DNA of 64,000 nucleotides, taken from the NCBI GenBank assembly GCA_016787085.1, contig JAEUVJ010000008.1, positions 1 to 64,000 of the forward strand, read 5' to 3'. Position numbers and translations under genes: made by a program. Shown piece after piece: positions 57,253-58,431 of the stretch. Source of the DNA: Chitinophagaceae bacterium (lineage in GTDB: Bacteria > Bacteroidota > Bacteroidia > Chitinophagales > Chitinophagaceae). Below the pieces are notes generated by a model, which was not told the DNA's origin, made no database searches, and saw nothing but the letters and a program-made list of their open reading frames with translations. Position 1 is the first letter of the stretch. Each line of letters starts with the position of its first letter.

Positions 57253-58431
57253 CTAAAACTGCATTTTACTTTTTCCTTTGTCAGCAGAGGTAGCCACTGC
57301 AATTCCTCTATTGTCCTTACTATCAACGGCACAATAAAAATGATACACGACACCTTTCCATTTTACCACGAAAGGCTTATGCGCATACTTTGCATCATAC
57401 GGTTCGGATGATTTAATGAGGTCCTCGCCATCCCAGTCGGTCCAGTTCACCAGGTCATAGCTGCAGGCAAAGCGGTTGAGTGTTTCATTCTTCCTTTCTT
57501 CCCAGAAGGCGCCGAAGTAGAACATTACCCATACCTCGCCGATCTTTTGTATCACCCCATCCCCGGTAATGCCGATTGTATGATGAACAACCGGGTCAAC
57601 CTGGTAACGCTGCCAGTGAACCATATCATCACTTACGGCCATACCGATCCGCTCAAACCATCGCCATTTTGGTGTATTGTTGCTTGTATCACCGTTGGCG
57701 TTATAGTACATCACAAAAGGATGTCCCGTCGTTTTATTCTTATCCCATATCACAGAACTTTTGAATAGTTTTTTATTCTCCCACCACCGGACATCTTTAT
57801 CGGTAGCCGTCAAAACCGGTTTATCCATCCTTTGCCATTCATGCGGCTTCACGATATCACTATTTGTACTCGCTACCCCGATAGCCAGCGGTCCAGCTTC
57901 ATAGCCGCGATCTTTTCCGCCGATGTACGACATCCAGTATTTTTTTTGGAACTTTTGCAGTTTATAGCTTCCATCCCATTTAGTGTCCTGCAAAGCGATA
58001 TAACCGGCTTTCTGGTTATTGTCCCAGTCAGATGTATCAGAAAAACTCAGCAACCTGCCCAGTGTTTGCCACTGCAACAGGTTCTTGCTTTTTGCTAGCC
58101 ATGTTTCATATCCCCTTCCGTCAAACGCGATATAGGTCATGTACCAGTTTTTTCCTTTCCTGAAAACAGAAGGACAATCCACTTTTTTAGAACCGGTCTC
58201 CGGCGTTATCACCAGGCCATATTTATAAGGTGTCTTCACTTCTTCATAGATCTGTTGCATGACAGATTGCGGCACCTGGGATCGAACCACTAAGGCACTA
58301 AGTACACTAAGGAACACAAAGAAAAACTTTGTGATGCCTTGAGCCTTTGTGTCTTTGCGGTTCAAATAGCTAAAACCTGATCTCTTTTGCTCTTTCACTG
58401 GCTGTTTTCTTTTTTGCATTAAAAGGAACAA
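57253..58431 (-). CDS. GH43-like five-bladed propeller glycosidase with repeat-derived signal peptide
   Basis: The 392-residue frame has a glycosidase propeller from ~residue 60: [37 protein letters not shown] and [20 protein letters not shown]. Such proteins in clans GH-F/GH-J release arabinose, xylose or fructose, and substrate is not predictable. The long frame overlaps the GH2 gene by 62 bases; a TTG at 58365, five bases after the GH2 stop, gives [10 protein letters not shown] then [17 protein letters not shown], a normal signal peptide. That whole N-terminus, including the TTG, falls in an 82-base interspersed repeat. I favour the TTG start. Confidence 0.75.
58284..58365. repeat. Interspersed palindromic repeat overlapping the N-terminus of the GH43-like gene
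   Basis: On the minus strand the element runs from ttgaaccgcaaagacacaaa to ccttagtggttc. Its two halves pair imperfectly around a TTTTT centre (cacaaag/ctttgtg, gaacc/ggttc). It encodes the signal peptide of the GH43-like enzyme. Confidence 0.75.

Follow-up and report, generated by a model that had tools for sequence, protein, structure and literature searches.

Can a dispersed palindromic repeat supply the export signal of an enzyme? The question is raised by an 82-nt element in the window (the whole 64,000-nt stretch of DNA that was analysed), which sits between the stop codon of a GH2 gene and the mature part of a GH43-like glycosidase (Table 1). The best Pfam match of the glycosidase is Glyco_hydro_130 (E 6e-6), slightly under the curated cut-off. 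We consider it likely that a repeat-derived palindrome was recruited here as the signal peptide of an exported GH43-like enzyme, and that such recruitment is recurrent.

Table 1. Positions of the genes, repeats and candidate start codons considered in the window.
Feature	Position	Strand	Remark
GH43/GH130-like glycosidase ORF	57253..58431	(-)	predicted mature start Q at 58278
Interspersed palindrome	58284..58365	(-)	codes for n-region and hydrophobic core of the candidate signal peptide of the GH43-like protein
Candidate TTG start, repeat edge	58363..58365	(-)	NTG in 8/11 repeat-bearing orthologues
GH2 beta-galactosidase gene, upstream neighbour	58370..61774	(-)	has its own repeat-derived leader
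Alternative GTG start within GH2	58396..58398	(-)	in all repeat-bearing orthologues
Alternative ATG start	58417..58419	(-)	overlaps GH2 by 50 nt; missing in several orthologues
Second palindrome of this family, candidate GH2 signal peptide	61618..61698	(-)	followed by PSFAQ
Piece of second repeat (CATCGTTGTGTCACTCACTTGTGCGTTC), far N-terminus of GH2	61717..61754	(-)	adjoins palindrome
Other palindrome with REP-like insert, leader of next gene, GH88 (61779-63032)	62947..62994	(-)	

Read directly from the minus strand (58365 to 58284), the element is an imperfect palindrome of 82 nt (TTGAACCGCAAAGACACAAAGGCTCAAGGCATCACAAAGTTTTTCTTTGTGTTCCTTAGTGTACTTAGTGCCTTAGTGGTTC), and its sequence, strand and translation agree with the original prediction. 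It is predicted to fold as a single long hairpin (-29 kcal/mol, z -4.9; 0/200 shuffles equal), the form that characterizes what we call, as a working name, the Bacteroidota interspersed palindrome, CACWAAG/CACAGAG type. An automatic repeat search at default settings returned no inverted repeat at this position. The element is free of stops and in frame with the GH43-like enzyme. Its translation passes from a basic n-region through a hydrophobic core to VRS|Q (RS|QVPQ on the mature side), as had been foreseen for the residues that precede the mature domain. Judged by a simple hydropathy rule for Sec signal peptides cleaved by signal peptidase I, which asks for a basic n-region, a hydrophobic core that is free of charges and at least 10 residues long, and small residues at positions -3 and -1, this is a candidate leader. 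The claim that the repeat provides the whole signal peptide has to be narrowed: the n- and h-regions come from it, but the last part of the c-region (S|Q) falls immediately beyond its border.

The element carries the arm consensus TTGAACCACAAAGACACAAAG, which occurs in more copies than in the reversed-sequence control. An arm profile built from 122 arms gave, at a cut-off of 12 bits, 175 matches in 1.88 Mb of sequence and 0 in the reversed sequence, bearing out the assignment to a Bacteroidota repeat family. The repeat occurs in several dialects (CTTAGTG, CTCTGTG, CTTTGTG and CTTCGTG units). Units are spaced by 8, 9 or 10, so that a fixed-period pattern missed copies. Searches with a two-unit pattern found copies in 26/149 genomes of a family sample (1 control match); a stricter three-unit pattern found them in 24/296 genomes of a phylum sample (no control matches listed). 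Copies are sparse in the genome of the window itself: about 10 are clear, of which contig C22, on which the window lies, holds six, and most of those not used as leaders are intergenic. The family resembles REP/ERIC/MITE-type palindromes in being short, dispersed, palindromic, mostly intergenic and hairpin-forming. Rfam holds no family matching the 64,000-nt window, and no published name for the repeat was found in the literature covered.

The composition of the two arms suggests how such a repeat can read as a leader. The first arm encodes basic, hydrophilic residues rich in K, R and H (NHKDTKTQR or TTKTQRHK), and the second arm (CTTTGTGTCTTTGTGTCTTTGTGGTT, CTTTGTG units) is hydrophobic in both of the frames used (..LCVLCAFVV and ..LCVFVSLWFN). 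Since the element is palindromic, the n-then-h order appears on both strands. A copy beside a gene start is therefore a near-ready n-plus-h region. Scored with a simple hydropathy rule that recovers 42/56 ordinary orthologue leaders, copies not used as leaders were leader-like in 32/252 frames (12.7%), compared to 2.5% of random contig windows and 4.5% of dinucleotide shuffles in the comparison run.

We searched for orthologues of the GH43-like protein in 246 family genomes and in one genome per species of GTDB r220, and obtained loci from about 100 genomes (the two search sets overlap). Ten further Chitinophagaceae genomes have an in-frame, stop-free repeat leader at the same site (L121, L124, L127, L068, L069, L130, L133, L136, L150 and L123). 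They include the closest MAG (L121, 92% identical and likewise Lacibacter), Lacibacter cauensis (L124), L. luteus (L127) and two further genomes that bear the genus label of L124's genome (L068 and L069). Eight of the repeat leaders, that of the window included, align without gaps over 29 codons. No repeat-bearing orthologue has a stop or frameshift in the leader, and the hydrophobic core is retained in all. In a neutral simulation, the chance that frame and hydrophobicity are retained was 0.1 to 0.6 for single pairs, and pairwise comparison at the codon level found no excess of synonymous change within the repeat. The retained frame and core fit a loose constraint acting on the properties of the peptide, which by themselves they would suggest weakly.

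Some 60 orthologues at a greater distance have ordinary signal peptides (MKxx...AQ) unrelated to this one, with no repeat and no match to the arm profile. In Terrimonas pollutisoli (L122) a degenerate copy of the same family, in another frame, was recognized by eye and falls under the profile threshold. On another branch, the GH43-like leader of L066 and L129 is made of a different palindrome (GGGCTAAAGCCC...GGGCTTTAGCCC), and L132 has a degenerate version of the GGGCTAAAGCCC-type palindrome as its leader. On a tree built from mature GH43-like proteins the repeat leader requires at least 2 changes. It may have had a single origin with later replacement; we do not claim many independent recruitments at this site, as the tree is also compatible with one origin.

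Translation of the leader probably begins at a TTG, GTG or ATG codon that lies either at the edge of the repeat or a little further upstream, within GH2. The TTG at the edge had been noted before, but it follows the GH2 stop by 4 bases (CTAT), not five. The codon at this place is TTG in the window, L121, L069 and L130, GTG in L124 and L127, and ATG in L133 and L150; L068, L123 and L136 have no start codon there. The in-frame GTG at 58398 (29-nt overlap with GH2) is kept in 11/11 repeat-bearing genomes, for which conservation of the GH2 protein is a sufficient explanation. Upstream ATGs overlapping GH2 by about 60 bases had also been proposed; there is a single in-frame ATG (58419), with an overlap of 50 nt. 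Since three orthologues have no NTG at the repeat edge and all have the GTG within GH2, a start codon provided by the repeat is not established.

Repeat-derived leaders are not confined to the GH43-like gene, and their recurrence is observed directly. The neighbouring GH2 gene has a full copy at its own N-terminus, absent from the earlier description of this DNA, in which the first arm is read in another frame. Further repeat leaders in the same genome belong to an MGH1-like glycosidase (L002, MKNELKYFVTLCVFVSLWFNSFSQ), a GH43 protein (L003, MKGRSYFFVIFCALCVFVFQNVNAQ) and another GH2 protein (L004, MYCFASLRLCVKSFLLLCVFVSLWFNSFAQ). Altogether, about 10 families of secreted proteins have repeat-derived leaders, using two frames of the hydrophobic arm: GH43-like, GH2 of the LacZ type, two further GH2, GH43, rhamnosidase-like, MGH1-like, esterase-like, GH88 (Lacibacter) and two proteins that have no Pfam match (L033 and L207). 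Lacibacter cauensis and L. luteus, both cultured isolates, have repeat leaders of the GH43-like, GH2 and GH88 kinds. Three cross-genus pairs have a leader in common (L002/L202, L004/L232 and L003/L208), so those leaders have persisted. In repeat-rich relatives, 18/70 distinct copies were scored as leaders (13 after inspection), compared to 1.5% of random positions in the same loci, a count that is inflated because these genomes were mostly picked for carrying the GH43-like repeat leader. In a broader family sample, 2/35 copies served as leaders, one of them being that of the window. Inspection by eye removed five of the automatic leader assignments (L212, L221 twice, L227 and L228). A possible repeat-derived leader (SRGFFRRCNSWCLCALVVCFTLPTLGQ) was also seen in a more distant Bacteroidota genome (L256). 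As the repeat is open in several genera, unrelated leaders are found elsewhere and about 10 protein families are involved, signal-peptide use is well supported by comparison. The proposed exaptation as an export signal is upheld to this extent, but not as a one-off event.

That the repeat is instead retained as an intergenic hairpin, acting in mRNA processing, stability or translational coupling, with its translation a by-product and the signal peptide incidental, appears unlikely. While the RNA fold is strong, the element lies exactly between two co-oriented genes and most copies elsewhere are intergenic, a hairpin role does not predict that frame and hydrophobic core are kept in every orthologue with the repeat, with a cleavage-like site after them, nor that repeat leaders occur on many genes, every time in leader-forming frames. 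Furthermore, without the repeat the GH43-like protein would have no signal peptide, yet all orthologues have one. The hairpin and signal-peptide functions are mutually compatible and not exclusive. We think it very improbable that the repeat goes untranslated here, with a true start downstream (e.g. ATG 58260) and a cytoplasmic enzyme: such a start would avoid the non-ATG codon at the repeat edge, but it would delete the QVPQxVMQ conserved after the cleavage site in orthologues, and the repeat frame is stop-free in 11 genomes. Chance likeness between T-rich DNA encoding L/C/V/F-rich signal peptides and the repeat, to which cases with the second arm only lend themselves (e.g. L002, L207 and L208, sharing merely 25-30 nt with it), is hardly credible for this locus, where the element has both arms and the hairpin, given that reversed sequence yields 0 profile matches of at least 12 bits and that some 60 ordinary orthologue leaders yield none.

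Leaders are also common to unrelated genes. The GH2 leader of the window and the GH88 leader of Lacibacter luteus are 79% identical over 129 nt, including the c-region past the repeat, whereas identity falls to 32% in the 60 nt upstream and the two mature proteins are of different families. This contrast suggests that entire leaders were copied from one gene to another. A second conserved repeat (CATCGTTGCGTCGCACTCTTGTACTG) is often found beside the palindrome (61717-61754 in the window, and L035, L044, L119, L122, L126 and L117). In the leader of the window's GH88 gene, a CCCCTCC..GGAGGGGTTTGGGGAGG palindrome is broken by a REP-like sequence (GTCATTGCGAGCATTGCGAAGCAA); relatives (L126 and L137) have xPSLGGVWGG..AQ without the REP-like insert. 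The CCCCTCCTTCGGAGGGGTTTGGGGAGG palindrome lies in frame within other long ORFs (SKAPPSEGFGE) in L277 (G000:C22 ~140400) and L274 (G000:C12 ~370), and in this resembles the palindromic elements of Rickettsia.

Taking recruitment of the palindrome as a signal peptide as the favoured reading, a copy in the short GH2/GH43-like gap of a glycan-degradation gene cluster would have replaced the N-terminus of the downstream GH43-like gene. Being an n-plus-h region already, it would need nothing more than a small cleavage site (as a rule V/A-x-S/A|Q). The resulting Sec signal peptide would be cleaved before Q and the glycosidase exported. The same recruitment would have been repeated on about 10 families of secreted proteins, and finished leaders would then be copied from gene to gene by recombination. 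We infer export of the GH43-like enzyme, and the direction and mechanism of recruitment, from these sequence comparisons.

Recruitment of this kind is already precedented, and it is the recurrence that is notable here. A close precedent is the RU-2 repeat in Yersinia YPO1552 (Delihas 2007, PMC2759123), an unrelated repeat for which one strong case and a few weaker ones are described. Unlike RU-2, the palindrome studied here is one repeat family serving about 10 protein families, with persistence across genera and leaders common to unrelated genes. Rickettsia palindromic elements are often found in frame in protein-coding genes (PMC10969869). They encode a conserved peptide within unrelated proteins, whereas here the element is an N-terminal export signal and hydrophobic character alone is kept. 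It is not an insert with conserved flanks on both sides, and the letters of its peptide diverge. In Schistosoma japonicum, a gene family has a common signal sequence dispersed with repetitive elements (PMC3434034), but this is a eukaryote, the spread occurred by duplication with flanking repeats, and the repeat itself is not the signal. Neither the repeat nor its use as a leader was found described in the literature covered, which takes in few of the subscription journals, and literature on random-sequence signal peptides and Chitinophaga repeats held nothing on point.

The origin and frequent replacement of signal peptides are poorly known, and here the raw material can be identified. With used copies occurring alongside unused ones in the same genomes, and with some orthologues having the replacement and others not, the system is directly testable, and it opens tests of how export signals arise, how tolerant the Sec pathway is and how leaders are swapped between genes. 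For annotation, a start that is TTG or GTG or overlaps an upstream gene may lead gene callers to misplace the start of such leaders or to miss them. More tentatively, it is possible that several families of intergenic palindromes, unrelated to one another but each with an arm order that gives an n-region and then an h-region on either strand, form a standing reservoir of near-ready signal peptides in Chitinophagaceae and perhaps elsewhere in Bacteroidota, from which recruitment, together with recombination between copies, may continually replace and swap the leaders of glycan-degrading enzymes.
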